Positions 6,990-52,500 of a DNA stretch of 64,000 nucleotides are shown one piece after another (position 1 is the first letter of the stretch; each line of letters starts with the position of its first letter). Below the pieces are notes generated by a model that saw nothing but the letters and a program-made list of their open reading frames with translations, was not told where the DNA came from and ran no database searches. This stretch comes from Tribonema minus (taxonomy: Eukaryota > Sar > Xanthophyceae > Tribonematales > Tribonemataceae), in contig JAFCMP010000165.1 of assembly GCA_017506865.1 (NCBI GenBank), positions 62,001 to 126,000 on the forward strand, written 5' to 3'. Position numbers and translations under genes: made by a program.

Positions 6990-7580
6990 CTGAAGAAGAT
7001 TAGGCCTGAATGACTTCGCACAACACGATAGAGAGAGCAATCTACAAAATCAACAGCAAGCAGCTGAGGCCTTCAATTGTGTTCTTATGAAGGGGCGACT
7101 GCCCATCAGCACTGCCTGCATCGTATTGACAACAAGCACACAGCGCAACCTTGACATATGTTTGTGTTCTGTCAGTGCCATGTATGTACACTAGATGCTG
7201 TCATGTTTGTGCAGTTGACATTTGCAGGTTCAACGGCTACCTAACCCTAACCCTAACCCTTACCCTAACCCTATAGCAGTCAAAAAGTGGACACACTCCC
7301 AAAATACTCAACAAAAACACTGCAGGATTATCATGACCTACTTTCACCAGCAAACTCTCAGCGACTTGTCAGTATGTCCTGTGCATAGTATCAACTCTTT
7401 ACATACCCAGCCTTACCCATCGCCTCTTCATTAGAGCACTGGCTGGCTTGGCCAAACGTCACCAAGTACTTGCTCTGACAGTTGACAGCACAAGTATGCC
7501 TGCTGCCGGAAGCAGCCCGGTAATTCAATGCAACCTTAGGGTTCAGACACCCTTATAATGTGAAACTAAATTCCAGCAGC
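6990..7580. other. Spacer between two MYB genes with telomere-like tract
   Basis: Contains a short CCCTAA-type tract at about 7239-7273. It should also hold the promoter and first exon(s) of the downstream MYB gene, none of which I could define. No other coding signal seen. Confidence 0.4.
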
Positions 7581-22043: not shown

Positions 22044-25000
22044 CTATTCATCCACAGGGATTAGCTCCTCAAGGGGGTCCTGCTCCTGAGGACCCCCCCG
22101 CCCCCCCCCCTGGCCATTCTGCCTCTTATCCAGCCACGTGTTGATCAGCTCGTAGCTCAAGAACATGATGGCGGTGTTGGGCACAACGCGCGCAACGTGC
22201 GTCCCCATTCCCGCATAGAGCCCCTTGCGCCCCTCCTCCTTCCCTATTAACATGATGCTCTGCCACATTCCAGTGTAGCGAAACACGCCGTTCTTGGCCT
22301 GTTCCCGGAGGCGCGTGCGGACCACTTCGTGGGGATATGTGGTAACTGTTGCTAGGAACTTGCACGCAGCTGCCCCTAGGAAGTACTGGTATGGCGGCAG
22401 TCTGTGTGCAACGAGCAAGGTGGCAGCAAGGGAGAACACATGTAGGAGATCAGCACACAATTTTTCAACTCAGTCGCCTGCACGACTTTTCGATTGGTGA
22501 AACACGGCAGATTTGATGTAGTCCTGAAGGACTGGGGTTTGTGCGTGAATGAAAAAACAGAAGCATGCAGCGTGTCCGTTTTCTTTGGCAGTGACATTCA
22601 TAGTCAGCCCTTCGTTGGCCGACGACCTCATAATGCTAGACACGGCTCATTGAATAGGTTGTCAACGACGAGACGCTTCATAGAGTTGTTGAGGATTGAA
22701 CAGTAGGGTAGACTCAAAATTGAGGGTTGGGTTAGGTTAAAGTTTTAGGGTAAGGGTCAGGGATAAAAAACTCACGAGGAGCATCGGGCACTCGGTAGTA
22801 GGGATATTGCAATGTGTGACGCTCACAATTACTGCTTCAATTTGGCCAACTTGAAGTTCTCGGCTGATCATGGTGCATCCGTCACCAAGCAGGAATGCGT
22901 TGCCATTCGCAAAGTAGGGGTCGTGCACGTACAGTGTCACCCTAACCCTATAACCCTAACCCTAACCCTAACCCTAACACACCTATCCATGACGGGAACT
23001 CCATTGGCGTTACAGTGCTGAGCGTGGCACACATCCACGTAGCACAACGCTTCACCTTCTCTGGGGTTACATTGGCGTAGGGTTCAGCATACATACATAG
23101 GGTTGAAGGTAGGGTATGTGCCTGTCGGTGGCAGGTATTCCATTGGCACGACAGGAGCGCCAGTGCTGAACACTGTTGGGCCAATGAAGCTCACCTGCTC
23201 AATAGTTGGGTTGAATTAATGAAGCATTGAGCATACTCCTAGTCTACGTGATTTTGAGTTGTAGGCTTGCTTGTACCACGCTCAATGAAGGTTCACCTTC
23301 AGTGTTGGGCATACTTGTGAGTAGTCTACATGGGTTAGAGCATGGCGCACCTCCAAGTAGCGCTTGACTTTGTAAGTGTAGGTTGATGTAGGGTTTGTTC
23401 ATGAGAAACCGCAGTTAGGGTACCGATCAGTGACGGGTACTCCGTTGGCGTGGCAGTGCTCAGCATGACGCACCTCAAAGCAGCACTTCATCTTCTCTAG
23501 GTGTGAACTGATGTACTTCGAAGTAGACCTACTCTATAAGGGATTGGAGCTAAGGTACCTATCGGTGACAGGTACTCCGTTGGCGTGGCGGTGCTCAGCA
23601 TGGCGCACCTCTAGGTAGCGCTTGACCACCTCTTACAGAAGGGTTCGTATAGTGTAGACTTGAGCAGTCCTCTGGTCTAGATTGGTTAGAGTCGTAGACT
23701 AAGTACTTGTAGTACCTATCTGTGACAGGTAATCCGTTGGCACGACAGTGCTCAGCATGGCGTGCCTCCAGGTGGCGCTTGAGCTTCTCATACGCCACAA
23801 ACTGTATGCACCCCTCGCTGCACCCCCAGTAGCTAGCGGACAACCCCTGCAATGACAGGTTGTGCAAGGACAGAGTGGTCGGCAAATGTCAGCAAAGCAC
23901 GGTAGCTATATAGCGGACAACCCCTGCAACGACAGCTTGTGCAAAGACATAGTGGTGGTGGGCACATGTCAGCAAAGCACAATAGCTACATAGCGGAACC
24001 CCTGCAACGACAGGTTGTGCAAAGACATAGTGGTCGGCAAATGTCAGCAAAGCACAGTAGTGGTGGGCACATGTCAGCAACTAAAAGTAGCTATATAGCG
24101 GACAACCCCTGCGATGGCAAGTTGTACAAGGATATAGTGGTGGTGAGCGCATGTCAGCAAAGCACAGTAGGTAGCGGACAAATTCTCCAATGGCAAGTCG
24201 TGCAAGGGTGTAGGGTGGGCACATGTCAGCATAGCACAGCACACCAAGTAGGTTGAAGGGGCCAAGTCGAGCGGATGTTGGCACATTGTCAACACGAGAA
24301 CTGACATGTTTTTACGAGCAGTGGCATGCGTCTAACAGTGTGGCTAGGGTTAGGGTCAGGGTTAGGGTTAGGGTTAACAACAGCCATCCACAACTTGAAC
24401 TTGCGCCGCCTGACAGCAGCACACAGAACTGAAGGTATGATAAGTTGGTGGGTATCTCAGCAAGTGAGCCCATGGATGCAATGGATGCAGCCATGGCTGA
24501 TCCTGTCATGGCGTAGCCTTCACTCACTTCTCATCCAACTTTCATGAGACACAAAACCTCTTGTCTGCCAGCAGGCCCAGCAATCCATTGATTGTGAAAA
24601 TAATAATTCAGCGCTATGCGCTACTTGTGCAGTGCAAAGTAATCAAAAGCATATCATGCCCCCTTTTCATCATTTTCAGCTGCCAGATGCCTGTACCTTT
24701 TACACGCCAAGGTACCCTGAGAGCACAAAACCCTCAAGAAAGATGCATACTCACCATGCAAGACCCACATCCTGGATAAGCCATGAACTGCATGCCCACT
24801 TCAACGCACTGTATTCTGTTTTGGCGCTGCTTGATAGCAAGAACGCATGCAACAGTCGGTGTAACTACCTTCTACCACATGCTAAATAAAGTACCTTCTG
24901 AATCATGCTAAATAAGACTTCAGGTCCGCGCTCGTACATACCTTATAAAACCCCCTCACACCCTCCTCCTTCAAGATGCTCTTGACAGCATGCCTGTAAC

Positions 25001-28000
25001 CCGTGTACGCCACCTGCCCCTTGGCCGCATTTGCCAGCAGCTGCATTCGCGTTTTCACCATCCTGCACACAGAGAGCGAAGAGGCAGTCGATTGTTACGT
25101 ACATGGCATAGAGTGAAGAAGCACTCATGCTAATCTGCATGGACCAGACAAATCCTTGTGACCGATGGCGCTTAAAGTTGAAGTACATTGTGATTATGTG
25201 ACACACAGTTTGTGAACAGATCTTTGCAAGAAGATATGCACATGGGCACCTGTACAAACCGGCACGCACAACACAAACTGTTGGTAAAGGTTTCAGGTCA
25301 AATGCACATATACTGTGGGCTGGAACATGACTTCTTTCATGGCATGCAAACTCGCCAAAAACAGTTAAACCAACCCTAACTCTACATGATTTCAGAACCT
25401 GCCCACACTAGAATGCAGATGTGGCCTGCCGAAGGACTCCAAGTGCAAATATGCCCTGATGACAACATGTACGTAGGAAGGTACATGCATCATCGATATG
25501 TACCTGATTTTTGCGAAGCTGTTGTATGTGTCTGTAAGCATAGTGAACTGGTCCATGTCGCTATATATCTATACATGCATGCACACAACACAAACGCCAG
25601 AAAAGCACCAGCAGCAGGCATACCGGCAAAGTCTACAAGCTCCAGCTCTCTCTTAGCCTAACCCTAACCCTAACCCTAACCCTAACCCTAACCCTAACTC
25701 ATGGCAAGACAGCATGACTGTCGTGTGATGAAACTACCTGAAGTATGCCAACGGGTAAACCAGTTCAAGTAGGGTGAAAACCAACTTGAACTTTGTGGTA
25801 AGTCAGGCACCAGGCTCACCATATAGGGTTAGTGATAGTGTTTGACACCATGCCCGCTGCAAACCCAGCCCCAATGTGTGTGAGCGTCCCATCGCCCAAC
25901 CTGCAATACGCCACGCGAAATCATGCATAGGCATGATTAACAAACAGGCATGCACACACACATCAAGTGTAGGTGTAGTTGAAGGTCTTGAGACCCAACC
26001 TGAAACACGCCATACGGAATCATGCACAGGCACCAAACATGCGTGCAACGAACACACAACATATAGTTGAAGATCTGAGTGTACTGCAATGAGTCGCCGC
26101 TTGCAGGTGTGATACTTCAGGTACAATTTGAAGTGCAATGCAGGCCCCAGCTACATAGTGAACACCAAGCACGACAAGCATCAGAAAGGACCAGAGCTTT
26201 GCGCTGATATATGGCCTCCGACTGCCAAGATAATACAGGGTCGTGCCTGACAGTGGTATGCAAATGCACTGCACCAATGAAAGCCGTGCGTCGTAGAATG
26301 TAAATTGCATGGGCAGATGCGTAGACCAGATGTCACACATTCATGTGTGAAAGCTCATGCAGCAACAGCAAGAAGATAACACCACAACACCTGTCCCTGA
26401 CCCAATGCTTGCCATGAAGCCGCTCTGTGACTGTTTCTTCGGACTCCAACTTTGATTGACGGAGTTTGCTGAAGTCAAAACCAAACTACACCGCACCACC
26501 TATCACGAAATATACTACAAGAGGTATCAATGTCAGCACTGAGGTCAAACACCAATCTCACTTACCTCGGTGTCAGGACCCGTTTTGTGCTCTCATATGC
26601 CCAAAAGTACGTGGCTCTGCTTGGGAAAATCCCCAGGAGAGTGGGACTGAGCCCCCTGAAAAAACCCTTTACCCCCTCCAATCGCGCAATGTCCTTCGCA
26701 ATGACCATGGGATTTGCCGAGCCGCCGTTGCTGGATTGAAGTTGCATTTTGACAACTTCAATTGGGCACGTGAGCGTGCTGCACAGAATCAAGAGCGGTG
26801 GCGGCAATAGCAACAGAATGAGGGCATGGGACGGCACGAAGTCAGAAAGCGCGTGTGACAGGTGGTCGAACATGGCGCTTTATTGTTGTCGACTTCATTG
26901 TCATTAGGTGCCTAGCGCTGCTTTGGGCAAATTTGTGGCCGTGAAGCTGCTTCTCAGCTGCTACGACAGATCACCAAGCATTCCCTGTTATTGCACTCGA
27001 CAGATGCTTGCAAAAGACTGAATGAGATCAGTGTCTCAGATCACACATCTCAGTGCACTGATGATGGTAAAATTCCCGCGCTGCATCCACTTACATTGGG
27101 AAGATGTGGTATTTTAGATACCGCTGTAAGGGACTTGAGGCTACTTCTACATAACATTTACTACTTGCTGAGTCCATTGACTTCACTACCTGTTTGAGTC
27201 AGATCTTGCCACAAGACATGATGCTTTGATTCGGAAGCATGATATTGTAATCAGTCGACAGATTTTGCATTGCAAGTTAATGATTTCAGCAACACAACCT
27301 CAGCTGAGCCTTGTCTACAGGTCTTGAACATGTGCTGGCACGTCTCAGCTTCAGACACTAAAGCATGCTGGACAATCAAAAAGCACATCTGGCTGCTTTT
27401 GAAGTCGGAACAGAATTGAATGCACATGGTCGACGTCGACGTCGACCTTGTACAACTTCAACATTGCAACTTTAACTGATACTGGCCGATATGCACGCGC
27501 CACAGTCACTCCGTGCCAACATGGTAGTCGTGACACTGATTTACATACATACCACATGTTCAGCAGGGCTGTAAAAATGCAAGACAAGGGTTGCCTGCAA
27601 ATAGTGGCTGATGCGCATGTTAGCCATGTGGTGACCGACGCAATGGCAAGTCGGAGAGAGTGCTTTTGTTAATCAAAGTGTAATGGCTCATGGTATGTCG
27701 CTTTGCAATGTAAGGCGCAACACCCAAGTTCTCTCTGATGCATGAATATCTGCAGGTGAGTCAAGCAACTGCTGCGGAAAATAAAGATGCATTGTTGCAC
27801 GCAAACATGTCATGCGATGCATGCATGATTCTAATACCTGCTTGATCACTGCGAAGTTGCCGAAAACCTTATTGTTAGTATCACTGCACTGTGAAGGTGC
27901 CATCAACCAGCCCAGATGGCTCACGCCACAAGCACACCAGCCAGGGAAACAGTAGTGCAGTTGAATCTGCGACGCAGCGACGGCCCACAATATCTGCCAC

Positions 28001-28564
28001 CTGTTAAGGCTGGCTTGACGGTTAAGCTGGCTTGGCGGTTGACATTCTTTTGGACATTCCTGCAACACATAAATGCCCCAACATATGCTATTGAGATGAA
28101 TCCATAATCGGTAGCCTCTGCCGTGCTCCGAGATTCGTGAAAGTGAAGTTGAAGAAAACTGGAACCGCACAAATGCGAACGCTTGCACATGAGCTCGGTT
28201 GCACATGAGCTCGGTGACTGTACCTGCTGATGCTGCCCGCCAATCCTCCGGCTATGAGCGAGTACAGCTGGTTCCTGTTGGTGCTTTGCTTTGCAGCCGG
28301 CGCCGCTGGTTTGCCCACCGCAGATCCAGAGCTCCTGCTCCTGCCACGCGCTGCCATGACCCTAGTGTAACCGGGCCCATTTGCAACAGAGCCAGGCATC
28401 CTCAGCCGTTCCCGCCTGGCTCCCAAGGCGCTGGTATGCCCTGTACGGACGCCTATCGCCTCTGACTTACAGCCCAGAAAGGCCAGGAGGGCCAGCGTGA
28501 CGCAGACCCGGGACAGCAGCAACGGGCGGGCTGCCGGCGCTTGCCGCCGGTGCGAGCTCGCCAT
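22044..28564 (-). CDS. Mitochondrial pyrimidine-nucleotide carrier, SLC25A33/36 (Rim2) type
   Basis: Six exons: 28564-28224, 26778-26566, 25900-25820, 25062-24942, 23846-23716, 22401-22044; 414 residues, all GT-AG, phases consistent. The three carrier signatures are CPIEVVKMQLQ, NPIWMVKTRMQ and YPHEVVRTRLREQ; the last two, together with GLSASYWGCSEGCIQFVAYE and VPNTAIMFLSYEL, match the pyrimidine-nucleotide carrier subgroup. The first repeat opens with QLYSLIAGGLAGSIS split across exons 1 and 2. The N-terminus has a ~100-residue extension with a hydrophobic segment (VCVTLALLAFLG) before the carrier core, unusual for the family. An upstream in-frame ATG exists at 28573. Expected role: exchange of pyrimidine (deoxy)nucleotides across the mitochondrial inner membrane. 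Introns 2, 4 and 5 contain copies of exon edges (separate entries). The gene is head to head with the ATPase gene at 28971. Confidence 0.92.
22938..22979. repeat. Interstitial telomere-like tract, CCCTAA type
   Basis: Six near-perfect CCCTAA units, one interrupted by TATAA, inside carrier intron 5 next to the junction-copy array. Confidence 0.85.
22980..23640 (-). repeat. Tandem copies of exon-5 end plus 5' splice site (carrier intron 5)
   Basis: The real exon 5 ends at 23716 with ...RHAEHCRANGLPVTDR then GTACT. Downstream in the intron the same exon end recurs at about 23640-23560, 23512-23428, 23165-23110 and 23060-22985. The two nearest copies are open and read RHAEHRHANGVPVTDR and RHAEHCHANGVPVTDR, each followed at the same position by GTACC. 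The two distant copies are shorter or carry an indel. Similarity falls with distance from the true exon. Only the 3' half of the exon plus donor is copied, not the acceptor. Confidence 0.85.
23920..24260 (-). repeat. Tandem copies of 3' splice site plus exon-5 start (carrier intron 4)
   Basis: The true acceptor at 23847-23848 is preceded by TTGTGCAACCTGTCATTGCA-type sequence on the coding strand and followed by GGGTTGTCCGCTA. Four further units follow upstream, centred near 23930, 24005, 24110 and 24190, with 75-105 bp spacing. Three of them keep the CTGTCGTTGCAG or close acceptor and the GGGTTGTCCGCTAT exon start; the farthest is most changed. Confidence 0.85.
24330..24378. repeat. Interstitial telomere-like tract, TTAGGG type
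   Basis: About five units of GGTTAGG with single changes, inside carrier intron 4, ending in GGGTTAACAACAG. Part of a family of such tracts through the window. Confidence 0.8.
25657..25699. repeat. Interstitial telomere-like tract, CCCTAA type
   Basis: The longest such tract in the window: about seven uninterrupted CCCTAA units inside carrier intron 3. Confidence 0.9.
25985..26040 (-). repeat. Copy of 3' splice-site region of carrier exon 3
   Basis: The plus-strand string CCCAACCTGAAACACGCC and the following ATCATGCACAGGCA at about 25996-26032 parallel CCCAACCTGCAATACGCC and ATCATGCATAGGCA at the real acceptor (25896-25935). The copy has lost the exact CAG because of a C-to-A change, so it should be inactive. 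Confidence 0.75.
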
Positions 28565-28970
28565 TTTTATCACCTATCAGCCGCTGTTGGCTCGCCGGCA
28601 GTACGTGTTGCGCTGTGCACGTGTACTGCACACACAGTTCATGTACTTCAACACAAAGTTGATGTTTGCATGCTGAGAACTCAGGCACTGGGCGAGTTCT
28701 GCAAGCTACCAGTTGTAGCGGGAAGGGATTCTGTCGCACGTGCGTGCGCCGCGCTGGAGCGGCGGCAGTAGAGAGGGGGAGACCATACGTGTGAGCAGGT
28801 CGACACGGAGCTTTGCGGTGCGGGAAAGGCTGGAGTTAGTGGTCAGCCGTGACTGTGCCGTGCCTTAGCCGTGCCTACGACCGCCAATTGAAAGGCACGA
28901 GCGACGCTCACTAGCAGCAGCATCTTCTTGAGACCCTCAACTGGCATCACAAACCGTGTGGTGTGTTTAG
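28565..28970. promoter_or_regulatory. Divergent intergenic region between carrier and ATPase genes
   Basis: Only 406 bp separate the two head-to-head start codons, so both promoters and 5' leaders must lie here or overlap. The middle is GC-rich (around 28745-28775). No TATA box is obvious. Co-regulation of the two genes is possible but not shown by the sequence. Confidence 0.5.
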
Positions 28971-31900: not shown

Positions 31901-34900
31901 CAACTGCAGGAGCCGTGGAGCATCAAGGGGGAGTACGCGCAGGGGGGCGGCGAAGCGGAGGACGACACACGCGAAGTCAACTTCAACAGTGACGCTCAGT
32001 TCAACAGCGATCAGGACACGGGCTGGGCGTCCGATGACGAAGGCGCAGCGGGGTATGAGGGCAACAATGACAACGATGACGCCTCGCAGTTCTCGCTGGG
32101 CAGCTTTGGCAGAGTTGTAGGCGGCGGCGGTGGCAGCAGCGGCAGTGCAGATGGGGTTGGGCTCGTTCACTCTTTAAACGGCAGGCCAGCTGTGCTCATT
32201 GGCAAGAGCAACGGTGCTGCGAAGGGGCTATCGCAGGGCGCAGCGGCGGCGGCTGCGGCGGCGCGGCAGCAGCACCAGCTGCTCGCCACGATCCACGAGC
32301 AGCAGCAGCTGCTGCAGCAGGAGCGGCAGCAGCTGGCGCAGCAGCAGCAGCAGTTGCAGCAGCAGCAGCAGCAGCGGCAGCGCCAGTTCGTCCCGCAGTA
32401 CGTGCCGGCGCGCGCGGCGTACAGCACCTCTGCCGCTGTCGCAGACGGCGACAGCGAATTTCAACTTCAACGTAACAGCGAGCACTTTCAAGTCGATGTG
32501 CCCGACGCGCACGACAACAGCCCCCTCGCGGACCTGGTCCTCTCCAACGAGGACCCGCTTGACGGCTGTGCGCGTCGGCCGTCGCTGTTTGGCGACAGCA
32601 CGCGCCGCTCTCGTCTGGTGTCGCAGTGGGGGTTGCTGGGAATGGAGTATGGATACGCTTACACGGGCGGAGGGGGGGCGGGCGGGGGGGGGCAGCGCCG
32701 CGTGTACCTCAACACGGAGGATCCGTTCTGCTTGGTCACGGTGGGGGTGCAGGTGAGCTAACCCTAAACCCTAACCCTAAGTGAGGCGTGCGCAGCAGGG
32801 GTATGTATGTATGCACGTAACTCTGGGTGTATTTATCAGCATTTGGCGGCAGGTTGCGGCTGCGTCTGTGTGTGCGATTGTGCGCGAAGAAGAGGAAGGG
32901 ATTGGCGTCAGGTGCAGGCGCAGGTGAAGAATGCAACAGTATTCGTTTCTCAGTGCTGAAGACTCCTTGCAATGGGTGACAGCAGAAGTAGGGTTGCAAG
33001 TGCTAGGGGTAGGGCGGGGATTGGGAGGCGCGCTTGTCCCTGTTCAGGGTTAGGGTGAGAGCAAGGGTTTATGTTTCCAATGAGGATGGCCAGTGGTGCA
33101 TGCCACGAAGTCTGATTGCTGTGCTGCCTGGCACTGTGTCATATGTATGAACACACCAACCACATACTGCCATACCTACATGTGTGTGCAGTTTTTTCCC
33201 ATATACATAGCACGTCGGTTCTGCCCTTGATTTTCATCGACCCTTTGCTCTCTACGCCCGCCTCCCAGGGCTCCGGAAAAAGCCACTCAGTGGGCACCGT
33301 AGTGGAAAACTGCCTGTTGCAGTGCCCAGGCATTAGCCACACTGGCGGCCATCCGATGGCTACGCTGGTCATGCACTATGATCAGGATCCAGAGAGCGTG
33401 TGCGAGCTGACTACGCTCACGCAGCCTGACACGGCGCTCAACGTGCGGATGGGAGGTGAGTTGAAGTTGAAAGTGATGTTTTGCCAGTGACTCGCACGCA
33501 GTGACTCTCACGCAGTAACTCTCACGCAGCCTGACACAGCGCTTGACATGCAGATAGGAGGTGAATTGGAGTTAAAGCGAAGTCTGTGAACTGTTACCAG
33601 TGACTCTCACGCAGCCTGACACGGCACTCAACGTGCGGATGGGAGGTGAGTTGAAGTTTGTAGTTGATGGCTGTGAACTGTCAGCCACAACAAGCCAGAT
33701 TTGCGGACAATATTCGCCAGTGACTCTCTCACACGGCGCTCATTTTGCGTATGAGTGGTGAATTGAAGTTGAAAAGAAAGTGGTTGTGAAGTGTCGCCAG
33801 TGACTCTCACACAGCCTGACATGGCGCTTAACGTTCAGATGGGCGGTGAGTTGAAGATGATGTTGTGTCCGTGAACTGTCTTCAGTCACTCTCGTATAGC
33901 CTGACTCTGCGCTCGATGCGCGGATGGTAGGCAAGCATAACTTGAAGTTGACGTAAGGAACGTTTTGTCAGAGCGGATGACAACGCTCATGCAGCACGAC
34001 ACAGCGCTCAAGCCTACACACTCCGGCAAGTCAGAGGAAGTTGAAGTATGTAAGTGCTGACCTAAGCTAGTATCAATGGTGCAGCCCGCTGCAGTCCCAA
34101 CGTGCGAAACGGGAGGTCAGTTGGGCTACGTAACTGTCACGCTGCCATGTACGGCATTTAACATGCAGCGTAAGGTCTGCTGATGTTCAATTTGAAGTGT
34201 GCATTTGTCAGCGCCATCGAGCAGTGAGCCTGCGATTTGAAGCATGGCTCATATGTGCAGTTGTTGTACGCAAATGGTACACTTTGCTGGGGTCAGGTTT
34301 ATGAATGTGTGTGCTGTGTGGTCATGTTGAACTGTGATTGATGAACCGCAGTGTGCAGTGCGCTGTGGCTCATGTCTCAGTCGTCAACATCCCCCTTCAA
34401 ATGGGGTCTGCATGACATTAGAGACATGATTAAATGATGATTGCGCAGCGCAAAATGGCAGCGCGCTCAATGCACATAGGTTTGGCCATTCTAGCATTGC
34501 TAGCCATTTAGCCTATTCAAAAGCTATGAGGTGTCGTTCATACTTCGACGTATTTGTTCTTGTTGAAGTTTTCACCACTTGGGGTACAGTTGCGCTTCAC
34601 TCTACACATCAACTGGCAAATGATGGTGTCTTTGCAGTGTGGCTCTGCCTCTGCCGCTGCACTGCTGCAGTGGTCACTGCACCACCATATTGTCTCGTGT
34701 CCTTCACGTGGGTAGTGTGCATGTGACATGTTGCAGGACGCGGCATGCTCAACATGACCATATGCATGACCTTGAACGGTTTATGCAATACTTCGAATCA
34801 ATTTTTTCACCGTTTCTTGTCCCTCATGTGTGCGCGCTGACGTCGCAGAAGGCATGCCAAGTGGCATGGTCAGCGTGACCTACCCCAACCCTTAGTCTCT

Positions 34901-41687: not shown

Positions 41688-44600
41688 TTAAAGCTTGACA
41701 AAGTCGGCCAGCTCAGGCATGCCTGCTTCTTGGTACATGTCTGCTAGCCCTGCCCTCACGCTGTCCCAATCTTGGTAGCCAAATATGACGGCATCCATCA
41801 TGTGAGCCGCGCGATCCAACGCAATCTGCACAGGAAGCAGCGACAGGGAGGAGAGCATGTCAAACATTCATACATGTTGCACTGCCAAGGCATGACCACA
41901 ACTGATCAGGTACATGCATCGTCGAAGCTTTGCATGCTACTTACGTCCAACGAGTAAAACGAGGTCAACAGCCATATAGCGGGGCAACTCCACCGCCACA
42001 AGTGGATTTCTAGAATAGAAGTGCTTAAAAGTGCATTGGTTTACCAATACAGGAATAGCGTTACCCAGAGTATATGCATGTTGCTTGGTTTTGGACCAGT
42101 GTAATTTCTCTGCAAGTGTCAGGGTTCACTGAGCAGGGGTGTCAGTTGCTCTCATCAATAAAGCGCTCGTGCATTAAATTCAGGTGCTGGGGTATTCTAA
42201 TTGCTGGCCCAGACCAATTGTGCCTGCGCCTCATACTGTCAGCATAATGCCAGTACAATGAGTAAGCAGTTGATCTGCATAGCACAGTTTCCTGCGGCTG
42301 CCACCTATCAGCGATGCAGCTGATACAACAACGTCATGACTGCCGCTGTGAGAGTAACATGCTCTAAAAAGCACGAACGAGCCACCAACTGAAGCTATGA
42401 ACCAGTCATATAAGCGAACGCCGTATCTGCGCAAGCCCCTTTATTTCAGGCGTACGGCTGCTGCATCTGTTACCGCGTACACGTAGCACACCCCCAACCT
42501 AACCACGTGTGAGTTTCACACATTTTCAGTTGAAGACCACAAGAGCATCATAACTGCATGGGACGCTCCCCATTCGCTTCTTCCCCTCCTGCACCTCCCT
42601 TTCATCTGTCACCTGCTGTCAATAGCAATTTTTGCACCGTTCGCTCATCACTTCCACAGTCATTCCGCTACAGTAGGATGCCCCAAACAAACAAGAAACT
42701 ACCACCGTCATAGCCCAAGAGTACATAGCGTCCCCCCCACCCCAACCACAAGTGACGCACATGTTTCCATTCATCAAGCGGCAACCCAGTGCGCGATTGC
42801 GCCATAGGTAGAAGGTTTTTCGAGGTGTAGGGTTCTAGGGTTAGGGTTAGGGTTACACAAGCGAGCATTATAGTTGTTGCCTGCGCGGGAGCATGATAGT
42901 ATATTATCTGCGCAGGCTCCTGCCCCGTTGGCGCCATAGCATAAGAGTAGCACCCCCCTAACCCAACCACAGAGTGACAAACATACTTCCATCCACCAAG
43001 GCGTTTTCAACATCAAGCATCACAGCGTCATACCTGCGCAGGTGCCTTTCCCTCTGTCTTCTTCCCATGCTGCGGATCCTCCGCCAACCGCTGATACAGC
43101 TGCTTGACCTCCCCCATGTCGCTGTAGCCCGCAATGCGGCATACCGCTTCCAGCTCCGCAGCGTCGCGCGTTATCGTCCAACAGGGGCACCGCAGAGACA
43201 CCTTGGCTGCGTCCTTCGCCTCCGCATCGCGGCCGGTCATGCCCGCCAGCACCTGTTTCATTCAATAATCAAGTTGCAGTTAAAGTTGTGATGTTTCGCG
43301 CCATTGCGTCACAACCGACTGCTGAACAGCTAGCTACGAATGACTTTGAACGTAGGTGGAAGTGTCGATGTTAAAGTTGAAGTTGAGGTTGACACACTGA
43401 TCTTGCTGAGGTGGGAGACCCTGATCATCACCTCCCCCCCGGGCCCCGCACCACGGCCACGCATGAATCCTGTATGTGGCAGGCGCGGACAATTTCGGGA
43501 TTATGCAACGACTCTGCCACCATGCGCAAGACTCAAACACTTCAACATGTACTTCAATTCAAACTTCAACATTGCGCCAATGAACACACACAGTCCTATG
43601 TGGCACAATTTCTTTGGGCACTGTTGTGATGTCGTGTCGTCTCTGCCATGATGTGCACGCCGATATACAACACGAGCACCTGAAACTTGAAGTATGCTAT
43701 ACTTCAACAATGTGGCAATGAACGCACCTGAGCGGAGAATGCATACGGGTGCCCCAGCTTAAAAATATAATTCAAGTACTAAACTTCAACAATAAGCACC
43801 AGTGAATGCACCTGGGCGTAGAACGCAGACAGTGTGTACTGCAAGTCACACTTCAACAATGCGCCAATGAACGCACCTGGGCGTAGAACGCATATGGGTG
43901 CCCCCATCCCAGAAACACCTCATTAAACTTCTCTGCCGTCGCGAGTGCGCTGATCTGGTCGCCTTTGGCCAGGTGTGCGTCCACCAACCACTTGTAAATA
44001 TCGGGGAAGGGTGCCACCTTGAGCATTTGATACCTGCCTCAATAATAACAAGACATTGCAATTGCCGGAATTGTGAGGGACACAGTGATTTCATCAAAGT
44101 ACTTGAGCAGCACCAGTGGCGATGTGTGTCAGCAGCTGCCACCTTGAGCATTTGATACCTGGCTCAACAAGACATTGCATGTATCGGGTCAACGGGGGGA
44201 AACAGTGATTTCGGCAGAAGTGTACGCAGTGCCAGTGCCAACAAGTACATCAGCGGGACACGCGACAAGGGTTGGGGGGGGGCAAGCAAGTATACTGAGT
44301 CACATTTATTGCAATGTTAAAACTTGTTCTGTTGACCCCAACGCCCATGTGTGTGTCAGCATGACCCCAAAATAAAAAGTTTCAAAACTTATAATAAATG
44401 TGCCATGGGCCGCACCCACGCACAAAATGTGTGCAAGAACATTGACTTTAATTCAGCTGCAATCTGAAGTCCAGTTCATCCATCTTTGGCATCACAACAC
44501 GGTACTGTAATTGGCACAAAGACAGTTCTGACAAGCCTCGGCATCAGGCAGCTGGACTCAAAATTAGGGAACAGGTGACCAAATCAGCAGATCTGATGCA

Positions 44601-47600
44601 TACCTAGGGCTCTGTCAGTTCTGCTATAGCAGGTGTTGATGTTTCCATTATTAGGGCATGATGACCGTTACATGCTCTCATGGCCGCGATACGCCGGCGG
44701 TTGTGGCAGTTATGGCAGTTCCACATGCCAGTGGACAAACTACATACATCCACAATCTAGCAGCGGCACGATTGAAAGTCACGTTGATGTACTTGTATTT
44801 ATTTCACTTCGCAAGGGGCGCGAAAAGCCCTCTCTTTGGATGTGTACTAGTGAGCAGCAGCTTGCTAGGCTGCTGCCGCAGGCAGCAAATATACATGCAT
44901 ATTATTCAGAGCATATGAAAACATGCATGCGGGCTGCAGCCTAAAACTATTCCACTTGCCGCAGGGCACATAGCCACACATGGTAAAGAGGGGGAAGTCG
45001 CAGGTTGCGGTGTCATGTCTGGCATCTCAGGCAGACTGCCCAAGTCAGGCAAAGGGTTAGAGTTGAGTGCCTATACCTCGCAGTATATCAGGGAGGCCGC
45101 AGCCCATTCCCTTTACATTGTCTGCCACGAAAAAGTCTCCATAACCGGTGCTGAAACATAATTGTAACTAACTACATACGATCTGCCCAAACTCCAATCT
45201 CCACATGTTGCCCAGCTTCTTCACGCCGCCTGTTCAAATGCGTATATCACGTGAATGCACCACAACGATGTACTCAAGTGGTGCTTGACGAGTCACAACT
45301 TCAAATGCAGTGCCAAGCTTCAACTTCAGCAGTGCTCAGAGACTAGTGTTGTAAGCAGATATCAGCTCAGCTGACCGGTTTCGGTGGCCTTGTCTGGACC
45401 GGCTCAGCCTGTCAGTCCTCATGCAAGCCGGTTGGTCGCTTGGTGTGACCGGCTCAGAACACTGTCAGAGACACATCCACTTATTCACAACTTCAAATGC
45501 AGGGTATACCTTCAACTTCAGCAGTGCAAAGCCATCAATTGATTCACATACCTCTCCACGCCATAGCCCAGCTTCTTGACGCTACCAGCCACGTATGGCT
45601 CTTGGCTGTCCCACAACCCGTTGTTGGCGAGAGCAATCACTTCACGCGCCATTGGCGATCCCTGCAGTGGAGCAACAGGGCATTCGCACACGTGTAAAAC
45701 GGGATTTGATTCAGAGTGTACGTGTAGGTGGAAAGATGAGTTGGGGTACGAGATATCTACATACCCTTGCCGCATGTGCTTTCACTGCAGGTTTTTGAGC
45801 TTGCGTACTTGGGTAGCGTGTGCGATGATAACGAATGAGCAATAGAGTGGCAGCGCATGAGGTCCACTATGGGTATGTATGGTTTTGGCGGCGACTTTAA
45901 TCAGATGGATTTGAGCGCTGAGCAGGGCATCAGATAGATCGACAATTGAGCTGAAGTGTGGGGTTAATTATAAGCGCCAACTGTGCGTGAACTCCCGCAC
46001 TTGTTTGAATTGGGAGTTTTTTTCATAATGTCCTTCTGCACTGTCGGTCTGCGCACATGTAGTATGGTGGCATGCCGCCATGTCAACGCACATTTTTGAC
46101 TTCAAATACCACAACATCAATGACGTCTGTGAAATTCTTGCAAAAACACATGTCAACCACACCATATTTAACTATGACTGCTTACGTTAAGTGAACTAGG
46201 TATTCAGACTCGCATGTCTCACCGCGTCTGAACAGCTCACTAACACTATACATGCTCTCAGCTGGGTTATACGGGAGCAACTGTGGGCAAGATCCTGCAA
46301 TGCTCGCTAACAAGCAGCATTGCACGCCATATATTCACATTCTGAAGCGCATGCTGTTGTTCAAGCAGTCGTCGCCGGTCTTCAACATGAACTTGCGGAA
46401 CTTGAAGTCCTCATGTGCGTTTGATCTATTGCTCCCCACCTGTTGGCTACAACTCGGACTGCTGCCATCATTTTCATGGCTGCACTTCAATACGTGCGCC
46501 GTACCCCTGCTCAACACAAAACCTGTGCAAACCTGAGCGTGCACGTATATTGACCAACAGTTATCCCATTAATGAAATGTTATTTTACCTGACTCATGTA
46601 TATTCTTACAATGTTCGCGAGTGATATGTTTATGAATGTGATATGTTCATCTTTTATTGTTCCTTAGTCTCTCGTGCTGGTATTGGTGCAATTTCTCAAT
46701 TCGATGCCACAAAATCGTGCTTCTATGTATTTAAAGTTTTTTTGATGGTATGTACTGTGGTAGTTTTTCGTTGCGCCCCCTCATTAATTTTGATGCACAT
46801 ACTTGAAGTTTGAATATTCACCTTGAAGTCTTCCTCCGCCGCTATGCGCTTGATGTAGTGATCCACATCTGTTGCCAGCAGCTGCAGGCCACTGCTGGGA
46901 CTGCTGCCGCTGTTAGAGCGCACCAGTGGCATCGCCAGGTGCTCGGGAGCTGTGGGCCAGCGCAGCAGCCCTACCTTGGTGCCATCTACATCCTACATGC
47001 AAGAGAGCAGCAAGAGATAAAGCATTATTAGAAATATATATCATATGCTACAATTTTTTTGGAAACAGCTACAATTGTAGTCATTTTTGTATCTAGCTTA
47101 TTGTTAGGTGTAACCGAATAGTGTGTGTGTGTCGTTGTACACTTCCACTGCAAGCACATGTAAACTAGCGACAGGTGCTCGGGAGCTGTGGGCCAGCGTA
47201 ACAGCCCTTCCTTGGTGCCATCCACATCCTACATACAGAAGATCAGGCAAAGAGTAGGTTCAAGTTTCAGTTGTACACTTCAACTTGAAGCACATGTGTA
47301 AAGTAATGCCGGGTGAGGGTAAGGTACGTCAGGTGCACCAAGAATACCTACCTTGGTGCCATCTACACCCTACATGCAAAAGAGCAGCAAGGGATTTTCA
47401 TTAATTTTAAAAAAGAATTAAGTTACAAAAATGACATTTATGGAAACAGCAACGATAATAATCATCTTTGCATCTCATTTTTAGGTGTGACTGTTCAGTG
47501 CGTGTGTCACGTTCAAAACTTCAGTTGTACACTTCAACTTCAAGCACATGTAAACTAGCGACAGGGGCACGGAGCTGTGGGCCAGCGCAGCAGCCCGACA

Positions 47601-50600
47601 TTGGTGCCATCCATGTCCTATAGACAGAAGATCACGCCAAGAGTACCTTCAAGTGTCAGTTCGACACTTCAACTTGACGCACACGCAATACTTGCGCCTG
47701 ATTAGAGAAGGGGTAGGTGGATGCGCGTGAAAAAAACAAAAAAAAACGTGAAGTGCCATCCACATCCTATGGAGAAAACAACGGCATCAGAGCACCTGAA
47801 ACGCTGAATTGAGCTGTGCACCTCAAGTTCAAGCACAGCAACACAGCGCTAAGTTAGGGCAAGGCAGCAGCCCTACCCAGGTGTTGTTCACAGCCGCAAG
47901 CACAAGAGCAGCGTATTACGAGTGCATGGCATGGACTTTCATGATGTGTTCTGAGCTAGAAACTATCAGCGAATGCATGGGCGCCACGCACGGTGCAGCA
48001 TGACAGCAATGGAAATCACACAAGACAATATGCAGCAATAACTAGCCAGGCTGTTTCTGTTTCTGCAGCAGGGCAGAGCGCAGTGCTTAGCCGCCCCTGA
48101 GATGACAAAGAGGGTGCACTGCCTCAGACTCACAGCTTCGTCTTCAACTTTGAAATGGCACTGTTGGTGAACAGATGCACGATTATCACCACGATAGATG
48201 AGATATCGCATACTAAAGCAACAGCGACCGGTTGTGGATTCAGACGCAGTGGTAGACTAATGTGGCATGTCTCTTCAGAAGAAGGAAAAGCAACACAGCG
48301 ACTATCTGCTGCAACAGCATGAAAAGTTTTGAGATTGGGGCATAGCAGCGATGCTACACAGGGTGCACAGTAACCAACTGCTGTAACAGCCTTGCATTGT
48401 GAGAGTGGGCATAGCAGCGATGCTACACAAAGCAGTCAGGATGAGATGTGGTGGCATAGACTACATACATACCATGGCCACGGGGATGAAGAAGGGGTTG
48501 TGCCCCTTCCTGTCTCAACATACGGTTTTTGCCAGCCCTAGCAATCAGGATGGGATTTGGTGGCATGACATACATACATACCGTGGCCATGGGGATAAAG
48601 AAGGGGTTGGTGTGCAGTAACAATCTGCTGCAACAGCCTTGAACATTGTGAGAGTGGGGCATAGCAGCAATGCTACACAAAGCAATCAGGGATGAGGATG
48701 AGATGCGGTGGCATGAGATGCAGTGGCATGACATATGTCTTATACATACATACCGTGGCCATGGGGATGAAGAAGGGGTTGAGCCCCTTCCTGTCAGCGG
48801 GGTCGCAGGGCGCCATGCCCTTAAACTGCAGCAGCTGGAGCAGCGTTGAGAGCCTCCGGGGGGGATTGGCTGCCACCGCCTGCGGCAGTGCACAGCGCAG
48901 GAGCATACATTAGCTGAGATCAAACAGGTACTTGAAGTATAACAGTAGAGTTGGCTGCCACCGCCTGCAGCAGTGCACAGTGCAGGAGCACACACCAGCT
49001 GAGATCGAAGACACATGAGTATTTTGACTACTGTGGATGTGGTGCCACTGTTTGACTCGTGGCCAATGGCGGCAGCAGCGGCGACCACATGCATCGGTGG
49101 AAGGCATTAAATTTGACGACTAACCACACCTTCAAGTTGGCTGCCACTGCCTGGAGCAGCGCACAGCGCAGGAGCACACATCAGCCGAGATAAATCAAAC
49201 ATGTACAGCAGTATGGCGTGCGTGCTTGAGGGTCGGATGCCAAGAGCATTGTATTTACAAATGAGTGATTGATACATTCACAATTGCGAAACAAATGAAG
49301 TCAGGCGATGACCGGACAGATCATCAATTCCTGAGATTTACACCTCTTGTTGTTCTTGTGGATGTCAGGGTACAAACGAACATGGCCTGGATGACAGTAG
49401 CAACAAAAGTAACAGCCGCAGTGCCGCGTCGGTACATGCAAGCACACGTCCGCTACGCTTAGGTGAACCACGCAGCCAAGCAGATGGTCTGCTTCAGCCA
49501 TTACTTACAACCTGCCATAGCGGCAAAGTCAGCAAGAGCGCCACGTGATAAATTTGCACCAGCACATTTCATGACAGCATTGTGGAAAGAGGATCGCAGG
49601 GTTGGAGGCTCATGCAGTTGCATGACCTTTCACTGCATTGCCCACCATTGCTCGACAAGATGGACGTGCTTGACCAGCATGTCGTTTCAATGTACTTCTA
49701 TTTCTTTAGCGCTCACAGGGGTGTACAACTGTTTTTTGTGTCATCCATCACCACAGTGGAAACCAAGTTTGGTTTGTCGAAACTTGTGAAACCCACCTGT
49801 CACATTGTCATGTGTCGGAAGACTGGTCTTTCTCAATGCACAGCACCACAATCCACCACAACCTCGTTGAAACCGTGTTCGTAGATCATGTATCAAAGCT
49901 TGGTTGCTTTTTCAACCGTCGTTTATCACCTTACCCTTCAAAGGAGATAATGTTTTCAAGCCGAATGTATTGTTTCATTTTACCTTCAGGATCATGCTAG
50001 TCCTGGTACAAATAAATACACTTGACACAAAAAAATCGATTTCAGCAAATGGCAAAACTGTGGCATCATCCTACTTGACTCATCAATACCAGCTTGTATC
50101 AGAGACATTAAACGCTAGGTATCTTCGGGAATCAGAAATGGTGTTGGGTCTTGGAGTAGGGTGCGTTTTTGGTGGAGTAGGGTGCGTTTTTGATGGAGTA
50201 GGGGCTAAACCTAATCATAACATATACATCAGGATCAATTCGGTTTTTCAATTTTCATAGATTGGTACACTCATACACCGGCCGCCTTAATTTGCATAGG
50301 GACACCACAGAGCTTGGGTCTAAAAACGTGAATATTCAACAGACTCCAATTACTCTTCAAGTCTAATGCACTGTGGGCATGCAGCATGATACGCACCAGC
50401 CATGACCGAAGCTGACCCTGACACGGATCCCTGAAAAGGAAGCTCTCCATCAAGCACGACGCCAGCCTTATCTTTCAATTGCAGAGCCGCATTGCAGCAG
50501 TCCCATTGGCGCTTCACACATTCAGTGCCATCGCTTGAAACATGATGTCTGCCAGGCCACTGCACAGCATTGTCGAGCATAATCACCTGGCACTGCTTAG

Positions 50601-51051
50601 GCAGTTGGAGACAAATAAGCTGCGCAAGGACAAGGCAATGCCTTCCAAAGTTTCAGCGCCCTGCCATTGGCGAGTACATCAGAGCAGTGCGCTCGCACTT
50701 GCACAGGCCTTCACTGCTGCGACAGACGACAGGATAGTTTCCTTGCAAGTATACAACAAAGATCATGATGTCGGTGTCGCGTCATGCCAACCATGCTGCA
50801 CGGCGGCCCAAATCTTGTATAGGGATGCAAGAGCGCACCTTTTCGTTGAGAAACTCCAAGTAAGGAGACGCATCCACGTCCGAGAGAGTGCTCATCCTAA
50901 GCCGCTGACATGATCGCCTGGCTACTGCTGAGTGCCGCAGCTGCGCCATACTCCTGAAAGCAGCCGCCATCTGGACCAGCAATGCAAAGGCCACGAGCAA
51001 GGGTAGCAGGATACTGCTGTTGCCTGCAGCAGCTCTCCCTCGAGGTCCCAT
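41688..51051 (-). CDS. Conserved plastid-type protein with bipartite leader
   Basis: Eight exons: 51051-50839, 48879-48754, 46992-46822, 45661-45552, 45150-45077, 44037-43877, 43252-43034, 41825-41688; 403 residues, GT-AG, phases consistent. The N-terminus has a hydrophobic segment (ILLPLLVAFALLVQMAAAF) followed by a basic Ser/Arg stretch, a signal-plus-transit layout with Phe at the junction. The body includes GLNPFFIPMAT, GLLRWPTAPEHLAMP, VDHYIKRIAAEEDFK, FPDIYKWLVDAHLAKGDQ, WGHPYAFYAQVLAGM and AQIALDRAAHMMDAVIFGY. These recall, from memory, a conserved family of chloroplast proteins of unknown function in green plants and algae; no enzymatic motif is visible. An upstream in-frame ATG at 51078 would lengthen the leader. 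Exon 4/5 and 3/4 joins rest on phase and composition, so a small missing exon is possible. Six of seven introns carry exon-edge copies. Confidence 0.75.
42830..42857. repeat. Interstitial telomere-like tract, TTAGGG type
   Basis: Three to four TTAGGG units after GGGTTCTAGGG, inside the last intron of the plastid-type gene. Confidence 0.8.
43722..43830 (-). repeat. Copies of exon-6 end plus donor (plastid-type gene, intron 6)
   Basis: The true exon ends ...HPYAFYAQ/GTGCG at 43877. Copies end near 43815 (GCGTTCTACGCCCAG/GTGCATTCA) and 43726 (CACCCGTATGCATTCTCCGC then TCAG/GTGCGTTCA). Both keep a donor. Confidence 0.85.
44138..44170 (-). repeat. Copy of 3' splice site and exon-6 start
   Basis: On the coding strand CTTGTTGAG/CCAGGTATCAAATG at about 44167-44145 repeats the true border TTATTGAG/GCAGGTATCAAATG (exon start 44037). 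The pair also supports GAG, rather than GCAG four bases further on, as the acceptor that keeps phase. Confidence 0.8.
44788..44848 (-). repeat. Inverted copy of the 104-bp repeat found at 56548-56756
   Basis: The plus strand here (CACTTCGCAAGGGGCGCGAA and AGCCCTCTCTTTGGATGTG) is the reverse complement of the core of the 104-bp unit 12 kb to the right, so this is a dispersed element rather than a purely local tandem repeat. Confidence 0.85.
45185..45230 (-). repeat. Copy of exon-4 end plus donor (plastid-type gene, intron 4)
   Basis: The true end AGCGTCAAGAAGCTGGGCTA...GAGAG/GTATGTG (exon end 45552) recurs as GGCGTGAAGAAGCTGGGCAA near 45220, continuing open to a GTATGTAG at about 45182. Confidence 0.7.
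46385..46466 (-). repeat. Degenerate copy of exon-3 end
   Basis: GGCAGCAGTCCGAG ... GAGGACTTCAAG on the coding strand parallels GGCAGCAGTCCCAG ... GAAGACTTCAAG at the true exon end (46822), with an internal loss of about 20 bases. The GT donor is replaced by TT. Confidence 0.7.
47155..47775 (-). repeat. Tandem copies of 3' splice site and exon-3 start (plastid-type gene, intron 2)
   Basis: The true border TGTAG/GATGTAGATGGCACCAAG (46992) recurs near 47228 (TGTAGGATGTGGATGGCACC), 47372 (TGTAGGGTGTAGATGGCACC), 47620 (ATAGGACATGGATGGCACCA) and 47768 (ATAGGATGTGGATGGCACTT). The nearest unit extends through LLRWPTAPEHLS before leaving homology. The units also share CTTCAACTTGAAGCACATG spacers. 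Confidence 0.88.
48468..48612 (-). repeat. Copies of exon-2 end plus donor (plastid-type gene, intron 2)
   Basis: The true end GGGCTCAACCCCTTCTTCAT...GCCACG/GTATGTATG (48754) has copies ending near 48583 (CTTTATCCCCATGGCCACG/GTATGTATG) and 48471 (CTTCATCCCCGTGGCCATG/GTATGTATG). The whole ~140-bp unit, including CACTCTCACAATG-type intron sequence, is tandemly repeated. Confidence 0.88.
48945..49190 (-). repeat. Copies of 3' splice site and exon-2 start (plastid-type gene, intron 1)
   Basis: The true border CACTGCCGCAG/GCGGTGGCAGCC (48879) recurs near 48970 (CACTGCTGCAG/GCGGTGGCAGCC) and 49163 (GCGCTGCTCCAG/GCAGTGGCAGCC). All three would pass as acceptors. The shared upstream part includes CAGCTGAGAT-type sequence on the plus strand. 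Confidence 0.88.
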
Positions 51052-51063
51052 CTGCGAGGTGTG

Positions 51064-52500
51064 CCAATCCCTGTTCATGCCCTAGATGTGAAGTTCCCAA
51101 CTGGGGTTGAACTTTTTAAATTTCAGCTCATCTAAAATGAATGGTAGGAGTTGGAGACTCTGAGAAAAAAGCTGCTGGCGCGACGTGGAACAGATCAGAA
51201 CCTCGCGAGCCCTGTTCATGCCTAGATGTGAAGTTCTCAACTGGGGTTCCAAGGGGTTGGGAAACTTTCAACCAGCGCTTGTCTAGAAAACGTGGTTAAC
51301 CCGGGACTCAAAGCTGCAATGGCGCCACGTGTAAGCAACACCGATGAGAACAGCCAATGCAGAAAGCAGCATGCACACTCATGCATCATGTGGGCACTGG
51401 CTGCGCGCCAGCTGCCGCGGGAATCCAGATCTTACGCCCAATACCCATTCCTGCACCTCAACACGCTATTGGGACAGTGTGCGCGAGACAGCTCTGCCAG
51501 TGTGTGTTTTCGTATCTGAGGCTGCGCTGCTGGCGGTGTCGTTGGCAGTTGCATGCAGTGCAGACACTTTCGGGCCTGGAATAAGGTAGGTGAATTGTTG
51601 TTGACAGCAGAACTCGCCAATCCTGTTCATGCCCTAGAGAGGAAGTTCCCAACTGGGGTTGAACTTTTTAAATCATCGCTTGACTAAAGCGAATGGCTGC
51701 ACGAGCGATGCGTTGCTGCCGTAGGATCCAGATTTTACGCCTCAATACCTAGTGTCACATTGCCGGCACTTTGCATGCCTTGCAACTGTAATGACTTGTA
51801 AGTCATGATGATGTTATACACCATGCTGCACGGCAGCCCAGCTCCTTTATAACGGCACAACAGCGCACCTTTTCCTTGAGAAATGTCAAGTAAGGAGACG
51901 CATCCACGTCTGAGAGAGTGCTCATCCAAAGCTGCTGGCATGATGGCTGGCTGCTGAGTGCCGCAGCAGCGCCGTATTCCTGAAAGCAGCCGCCATCTGG
52001 ATCAGCAATGCAAATGCCCCGAGCAAGGCTAGCAGGATACTGCTGTTGCCTGCAGCAGCTCTCCCTCGAGGTCCCATCTGCTACGAGGTGTGCCAATCCC
52101 TGTTCATGCCCTAGATGTGAAGTTTCCAACTGGGGTTGAACTTTTTAAATCAGCGCTCGTCTTGTAGAATCTGCGTCTCTGAGAACCATGCCCTAGAGAG
52201 AAAGTTCCCAACTGGGGTTGAACTATTCAACTCAGCCTTCGTCTCAGCAGCTGAGACTTTGAAAGCTGGCACCACATCGCCACGTGGAAGCAGCACCGGC
52301 TGCACGCGATGCTGCGGCGGGAATCCATCCTCGCCATACTCCTGGTGTCCCATTGCTGGCACTGTCAATACACACTGTTGAGAGCGACGTTGTGCGAGTG
52401 GCTAGACCATAAGTTCAGCCAGGGTTTTGTAATCTCAGCTGTGCTGCTGGCGATCTTGTTGGCAGCTGCATGCGGTACCGTTAACACTTTTTGCGGCCTG
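51064..52500. repeat. Repeat family upstream of exon 1 (five copies here, one at 58.5 kb)
   Basis: A unit containing GTTCCCAACTGGGGTTGAAC recurs at about 51100, 51236, 51646, 52120, 52202 and 58523. Longer homology (GGGAATCCAGATCTTACGCC and following ~300 bp with GCTGCTGGCGGTGTCGTTGG) links 51211-51590, 52187-52500 and 58508-58810. Two of the copies lie immediately upstream of exon 1 of the plastid-type gene and of its duplicate. Confidence 0.85.
51868..52082 (-). pseudogene. Duplicate of exon 1 (signal/leader exon) of the plastid-type gene
   Basis: From the ATG near 52082 to GAAAAG/GTGCGC at 51868 this is a ~1.03-kb-distant copy of exon 1, with its upstream sequence. It still encodes the hydrophobic leader (ILLALLGAFALLIQMAAAF), but a net loss of 4 bases after CACTCAGCAG shifts the frame, so the conserved MSTLSDVDASPY end is no longer in frame with the leader. 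The donor is intact. Confidence 0.8.

Follow-up and report, generated by a model that had tools for sequence, protein, structure and literature searches.

Arrays of decaying exon-edge copies in introns of the xanthophycean Tribonema minus

Genes and intronic arrays of the window

The window analysed here is a 64 kb stretch of contig C165 in the genome of Tribonema minus (158 Mb, 554 contigs). It carries three predicted genes whose introns hold copies of the edges of the adjoining exons, first pointed out in a reading of the DNA letters made without database searches (the sequence-only reading), and these copies are the subject of this report. All exons are predictions of a home-made gene finder trained on domain hits, with the carrier gene edited by hand, and introns of the gene-finder models have a median length of 378 bp. 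The genes, in window coordinates, are:

22044..28330, minus strand: mitochondrial carrier gene, exons 28224-28330, 26566-26778, 25820-25900, 24942-25062, 23716-23846 and 22044-22401
33330..39472, plus strand: gene called ATPase in the sequence-only reading, gene-finder exons 33330-33455, 35210-35532, 36545-36652, 37784-37915, 39008-39321 and 39373-39472
41688..50895, minus strand: gene called plastid-type in the same reading, gene-finder exons 50839-50895, 48754-48879, 46822-46992, 45552-45661, 43877-44033, 43034-43252 and 41688-41825

The spliced carrier protein matches PF00153 (Mito_carr) in three stretches (E 3e-65). The putative ATPase gene has a single Pfam match lying under the cut-off (17.5 of 20.3 bits), and ATPase is a label only; the spliced piece of the putative plastid-type gene is without a Pfam match. 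Rfam gave nothing in the window at gathering scores.

Self-BLAST of the window reveals dozens of local direct repeats between 22.9 and 52.3 kb, mostly at offsets of 72-630 bp; the few local inverted repeats of this region are TTAGGG-like tracts and a short palindrome. Copies were scored by local alignment of short exon or intron stretches (exon probes and intron probes) against the adjacent intron, an edge probe being the last or first 60 bp. The arrays located by self-BLAST, by probes and by Tandem Repeats Finder (TRF) are:

22981..23793, minus strand: carrier intron 5, where the last part of exon 5 (about 33-78 bp) recurs with its donor; self-BLAST, 5 copies, best score 86
23834..24239, minus strand: carrier intron 4, array of 77-bp units, each running from the intron end through AG into about 20 bp of exon 5; TRF (2.9 and 1.9 copies), self-BLAST, 4 intron-probe copies
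33413..33931, plus strand: copies of the end of exon 33330-33455 with its donor; self-BLAST, 5 copies
34812..35239, plus strand: copies of AG and the start of exon 35210-35532; self-BLAST, 1 by exon probe and 2 by intron probe
36239..36580, plus strand: copy of AG and the start of exon 36545-36652; self-BLAST, score 52, 36 bp
37523..37819, plus strand: copies of AG and the start of exon 37784-37915; self-BLAST, 2 copies
37862..38480, plus strand: copies of the end of exon 37784-37915 with its donor; self-BLAST (96.8% over 63 bp), 3 copies, GT in 3/3
43687..43904, minus strand: copies of the end of exon 43877-44033 with its donor; self-BLAST, two short GT-bearing copies (scores 36 and 32)
44012..44212, minus strand: copy of AG and the start of exon 43877-44033; self-BLAST, score 44, AG present
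46933..47683, minus strand: copies of AG and the start of exon 46822-46992; self-BLAST, 4 copies, best score 95
48294..48795, minus strand: copies of the end of exon 48754-48879 with its donor; self-BLAST, 2 copies with GT
48866..49206, minus strand: acceptor-side array of exon 48754-48879, taking in about 14 bp of the exon; self-BLAST only, the exon probe finding none

At a score of at least 30, exon-edge copies are present in 9 of 16 introns and at 11 of 32 edges, with 1/32 in the reverse-complement control. One of the nine positive introns has a score of 31 only, and adding the carrier intron 4 array, which the exon probe misses and the intron probe finds, brings the count to 10/16. Probes from exon interiors found nothing at score 34 (0/56) and a single match at score 30 (1/56). 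The repeat in carrier intron 2, detected by an intron probe, barely enters the exon (exon identity 0.64). That these introns hold decaying copies of exon edges, as the sequence-only reading had claimed, is thereby borne out; its tally of 13 in 18 introns refers to a set other than our 16 delimited introns and is neither proved nor refuted. Its claim that similarity falls with distance from the real exon also holds: the within-array Spearman coefficient is -0.48 (p 0.002; 40 copies in 12 arrays of the window), and the nearest copy is the best one in 8 of the 12. Carrier intron 5, where the copies become less similar away from exon 5, also holds one reverse-strand control match.

Two side observations concern the window. 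Short interstitial TTAGGG/CCCTAA tracts in both orientations lie at 7240-7273, 22939-22978, 24345-24376 and 25657-25698; three of them are in or beside carrier introns, one adjoins the far end of the intron 5 array, and they may be scars of break repair. No telomere repeat was seen in the 240 bases examined at each of three contig ends. The other is a 335-bp direct repeat (self-BLAST, 89.6%; 50790-51121 and 51820-52150), the first copy of which holds the predicted first exon 50839-50895 with its start codon; this exon and its upstream flank have seemingly been duplicated about 1 kb upstream.

Occurrence elsewhere in the genome and form of the units

Two gene families were sampled outside the window. 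The carrier sample comprises 20 multi-exon loci around mitochondrial-carrier domain hits, out of 146 hits, and was examined with the window; the loci were selected for several exons prior to any inspection of repeats, the intron-poor C147 being passed over. The kinesin sample comprises three loci, drawn from 14 of 132 matches and selected for clustered hits before repeats were examined. The third-codon-position G+C content is about 0.80 in the carrier domain hits. Dynein heavy chain gave 17 matches at about 14 places in the genome.

At score 38, a same-strand copy accompanies 24 of the 128 domain-anchored edges of the carrier loci and window, and none of the 128 has one on the opposite strand; 0.16% of scores against the introns of other genes reach this value. 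At least one exon-edge copy occurs in 13 of the 21 loci. The six domain-anchored edges which the window contributes have none, because the array-bearing carrier exons are not among them. In the kinesin loci 9 of 28 edges have a copy at the same score, again with none on the opposite strand. Local repeats of the 20 carrier loci and the window are direct in 229 cases and inverted in 7, and 40-mers starting at least 100 bp inside an exon have no copies in the carrier set. The recurrence of the arrays and their tie to exon edges, both asserted by the sequence-only reading, therefore stand in the window and in both samples.

Chance similarity, low-complexity sequence or assembly error would be a trivial explanation, and weak single matches can indeed be chance, since at score 26, the lowest tried, 7 of 128 edges match on the opposite strand. 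From score 30 upwards, however, the opposite strand yields 0/128 and the other-gene control at most 0.3%, and the units differ from each other, unlike those of a mis-joined assembly, and are present on many contigs. We regard this explanation as hardly credible. It is confirmed that the exon-edge copies are real, and that they occur beyond the window in both of the families sampled.

The repeat load is uneven. Local direct repeats cover 41% of locus L020 and 31% of L021; these two loci and L024 have arrays at many junctions, and L014-L017 have no local direct repeats. Locus L012 (C301:87501-97000) is a paralogue of the window carrier, three of its exon starts matching by translation; it has one weak edge copy (score 41) among five edges, and its counterpart of exon 5 is incompletely annotated. 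Locus L023, with nine domain hits, holds two tandem carrier gene copies less than 10 kb apart in all, which might serve to clock the turnover of arrays. The donor of the L026 exon 7563-7733 (gene strand) may have been placed 10 bp too far.

For the anatomy of the units, copies from 92 exons (63 carrier, 14 kinesin and 15 window) were pooled at a score threshold of 34. For the window the hand-set exons replace its three domain-anchored ones, and 4 of its 19 exons are omitted, namely carrier exon 1, 33330-33455 (5 copies), 39373-39472 and 50839-50895. Donor-site scores, the positional probe scan, the exon/intron contrast of best copies, the copy-copy correlation and the comparison of the L022 far unit refer to the carrier set only.

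The pooled set contains 87 copies, of which 70 reach the junction and 17 stop short of it. The units straddle the splice junction, taking in 21-95 bp of exon (25-81 bp in 46 copies at donors, 21-95 bp in 24 at acceptors), the remainder being intron. The sequence-only reading had the repeat boundary following the junction; the units are tied to the splice site, as it held, but do not end there. GT is kept in 36/46 donor copies and AG in 20/24 acceptor copies. As in intronic tandem repeat arrays, the units are direct and head to tail (TRF, self-BLAST), with only roughly regular spacing. The splice site of the nearest copy lies 93-313 bp from the real site in 37 arrays, and nearest copies of donor type lie 116-313 bp downstream of the real donor. 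At L020, positions 8163-8334 and 8476-8646 share 82% identity, including intron sequence past the splice site. Because units include such sequence, the intron must predate the duplication, at least in arrays with detectable spacer similarity. Splice-edge donor copies were found for 26 of the 92 exons and acceptor copies for 19, which is not a significant difference (p 0.30). If real, an excess at donors could plausibly reflect greater harm from an extra upstream AG than from an extra downstream GT.

Origin of the arrays

We consider that most of the arrays are explained by random tandem duplications of 60-200 bp which survive only where an exon edge stays intact, and give this a probability of about 0.65. 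On this account stretches of some 60-200 bp would sometimes be duplicated head to tail. A duplication wholly within a coding exon would break the protein and be lost, while one across a splice junction would leave one exon edge intact and be tolerated, the copy of the other edge becoming intronic. Repeated rounds would push older copies deeper and lengthen the intron. The copies would decay neutrally beside an exon held by selection, which serves as a yardstick, so that copies spanning a junction would be recognisable for longer than those of intron alone.

Where duplications fall is in keeping with this. Complete, near-identical tandem duplications number six in 281.7 kb (92-99% identity, offsets 59-137 bp); none of these few events overlaps any predicted exon at least 45 bp long, the closest being 17 bp off. 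Of 71 complete tandem duplications, 47 have 70-79% identity. A local copy was found for 15 of 58 donor-edge probes (26%) versus 2-8 of 56-58 probes at positions in the intron interior, and for 7/58 and 8/57 acceptor-edge probes (12-14%) versus 3-8 of 53-58, with no clear excess; the average rate for intron probes is 6-12%. In a simulation, an exon half held by selection makes an edge copy 1.9-3.7 times more detectable (k 0.12-0.16), a gain that could explain a large part of the donor peak. As the protected copy is the easier to detect, random duplication with loss of the exon-damaging events predicts most of the picture.

The sequence-only reading had suggested instead a duplication process focused on junctions. 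Such a process might, for example, be linked to transcription or splicing. The donor peak speaks for it. Acceptors show no clear excess, however, an excess of two- to fourfold is covered by detectability, and none of the six young duplications falls on an exon, which is a weak point, as a rough estimate from the predicted junction density puts the chance expectation at only one or two. A process of this kind is not needed to explain the arrays, and we think it unlikely.

Differences between exon and copy in the pooled set fall at third codon positions in 226 of 418 cases, and in L022 units 1 and 2 (57 and 56 bases aligned) every difference from the exon is at a third position. Both suggest coding constraint on the copies as the main cause. 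In 19 arrays with at least two copies, however, changes confined to a single copy are distributed 56/48/71 over the three codon positions, nearly evenly. Changes on the exon side (the exon against all copies, or a state common to several copies and absent from the exon) are distributed 4/7/28, a different pattern (Fisher p 6e-4; copies inside one array are not independent, which makes the p values for codon position optimistic). States shared by copies and absent from the exon, while another copy matches the exon, are likewise mostly synonymous (2/5/19). Coding constraint was dropped as the main cause because the third-position excess sits in the exon-side and shared changes. The copies decay nearly neutrally, and the exon-side changes are biased to synonymous ones; it follows that the copies are serial snapshots of the mostly synonymous history of the exon. 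Exon states are present in some copies and not in others, which is not expected of an array made in one step, unless its copies differ in age or derive from each other.

Selection for mini-exons, or for reserve or alternative splice sites, could also have retained the copies, the other mechanism put forward in the sequence-only reading. The frequent retention of GT and AG, and copies such as L022 units 1 and 2, would fit. The copy sites, however, score well under real ones: 30 copy donors have a mean of 2.6, real donors 4.9 and background GT 1.3. Complementary splice sites are not enriched at the far ends of the copies (46 donor-type and 24 acceptor-type copies; p 0.17 and 0.48), which gives mini-exons no support, L022 units 3 and 4 have frame-breaking deletions, and single-copy changes are near neutral. 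Selection for spare sites is thus unsupported, and we consider it very unlikely.

Several results weigh against random duplication with survival of intact edges. None of the six young duplications crosses a junction, and hence no event was caught in the act. The mean length of the exon part is 49 bp, and uniform breakpoints would give 82 bp (0/5000 draws); this shortfall is the one pointer that the idea of a junction-aimed process retains. In none of the 37 arrays are the real site and the nearest copy less than 93 bp apart, and the distance less the exon part leaves a spacer of at least 55 bp in all of them. Of the copy singletons, 41% are at third positions (one third expected, p 0.045), at most a weak sign of coding constraint. 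The 16 best copies with an exon identity of at least 0.9 have intron identities of 0.70/0.59, the prediction being 0.87/0.82 (0/5000 draws). Under a likelihood test of common age for exon part and spacer, the summed likelihood ratio (LR) is 136.5 over 52 exon-probe pairs, and for 29 pairs found by intron probe it is 63.7, above expectation, the exon identity of the latter being the best of 11 shifts. Finally, among 47 copy-copy pairs, picked by exon part, the identities of exon part and spacer are uncorrelated (rho -0.04).

These contrasts would fit another process, in which the exon edge is a master re-copied onto intronic copies by short-tract gene conversion or template switching, the arrays being sustained by such exchange and not by fresh duplication alone. 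L022 offers the clearest example, similarity of exon edge and spacer being discordant between its units: the exon edge is matched at 98% by unit 1, whose spacer is unrelated, and a far unit matches the spacer at 86-88% but the exon part at only 67-74%. The excess of the exon-ascertained contrast over the neutral prediction and the mostly synonymous states shared by copies (2/5/19) argue in the same direction. Against this, a common age is rejected at p<0.01 in only 6 of the 52 exon-probe pairs, and in one after correction. The measures of identity are also sensitive to insertions and deletions, and choosing copies by their exon part inflates the contrast. Of the intron-probe pairs, 19/29 have an exon identity of at least 0.80 with intron identities of 0.73-0.94, and only one of the 29, taken by itself, rejects a common age at p 0.01, departing in the opposite direction; the LR excess of this set comes mostly from 10 pairs with a dissimilar exon side, as though they had a breakpoint close to the junction or an exon part that was replaced.

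The intron-probe sets demoted gene conversion as the main explanation; in that role it is possible, though we would not call it probable. Because most of their pairs do not reject a common age, re-copying is held as a tentative addition to random duplication and not as the main mechanism. A minority of copies have an exon part that seems younger than their spacer, and in a minority of units it may have been copied again later from the exon. A stronger version, which we find doubtful, would make exon edges self-renewing seeds, the exon being re-copied over intronic copies within limits that the splice site imposes, about 50 bp of exon and at least 55 bp of spacer. That introns would then grow from their ends, storing dated synonymous states of the exon, is equally doubtful.

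Relation to known systems and significance

Intronic tandem repeats or minisatellites are built of head-to-tail units of tens to hundreds of bases and of mixed ages. The arrays described here differ in that one unit is a coding exon edge under selection, of which the other units hold copies made at different times. Tandem duplicated or mutually exclusive exons are a further case of exon sequence repeated beside an exon. Here only an edge of 21-95 bp is repeated, each copy has one splice site and not the two of a tandem alternative exon, and it decays nearly neutrally.

In the account of potato RdRp (PMC4974935), a duplicated intron-exon stretch yielded a new intron. The likeness to intron gain by tandem duplication is that duplication of a piece lying close to an exon boundary, or over it, supplies extra splice signals. 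In Tribonema, by comparison, the intron pre-existed, the real junction is untouched, and recurrence leads to arrays and not to a new intron; that no intron was created holds for arrays with detectable spacer similarity. Introners and introner-like elements are intron-linked repeats of some eukaryotes (PMC9860276). They form one family at many loci. Here, each array stretch that was searched belongs to its own gene only: two stretches, which cover about 4 of the 37 arrays, have no other copy in the genome save three matches of 30-53 bp, in a search which skips very common words, and for these arrays introners are excluded. A second allele, sought for recent changes, was not found in the assembly for two stretches. 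A literature search gave no account of exon-edge copy arrays inside introns; subscription papers lay mostly outside it, making this a weak negative and the novelty provisional.

Ordinary duplications filtered by survival, the exon serving as yardstick, are a better fit than either mechanism of the sequence-only reading. If the phenomenon is general, one genome would hold many series of exon copies of differing age beside the living exon, and would provide, without any relative, a neutral clock and the past synonymous states at the same site. It would also show one route by which introns lengthen, and raise the question of how the spliceosome ignores exon ends with a GT 116-313 bp downstream of the real donor.

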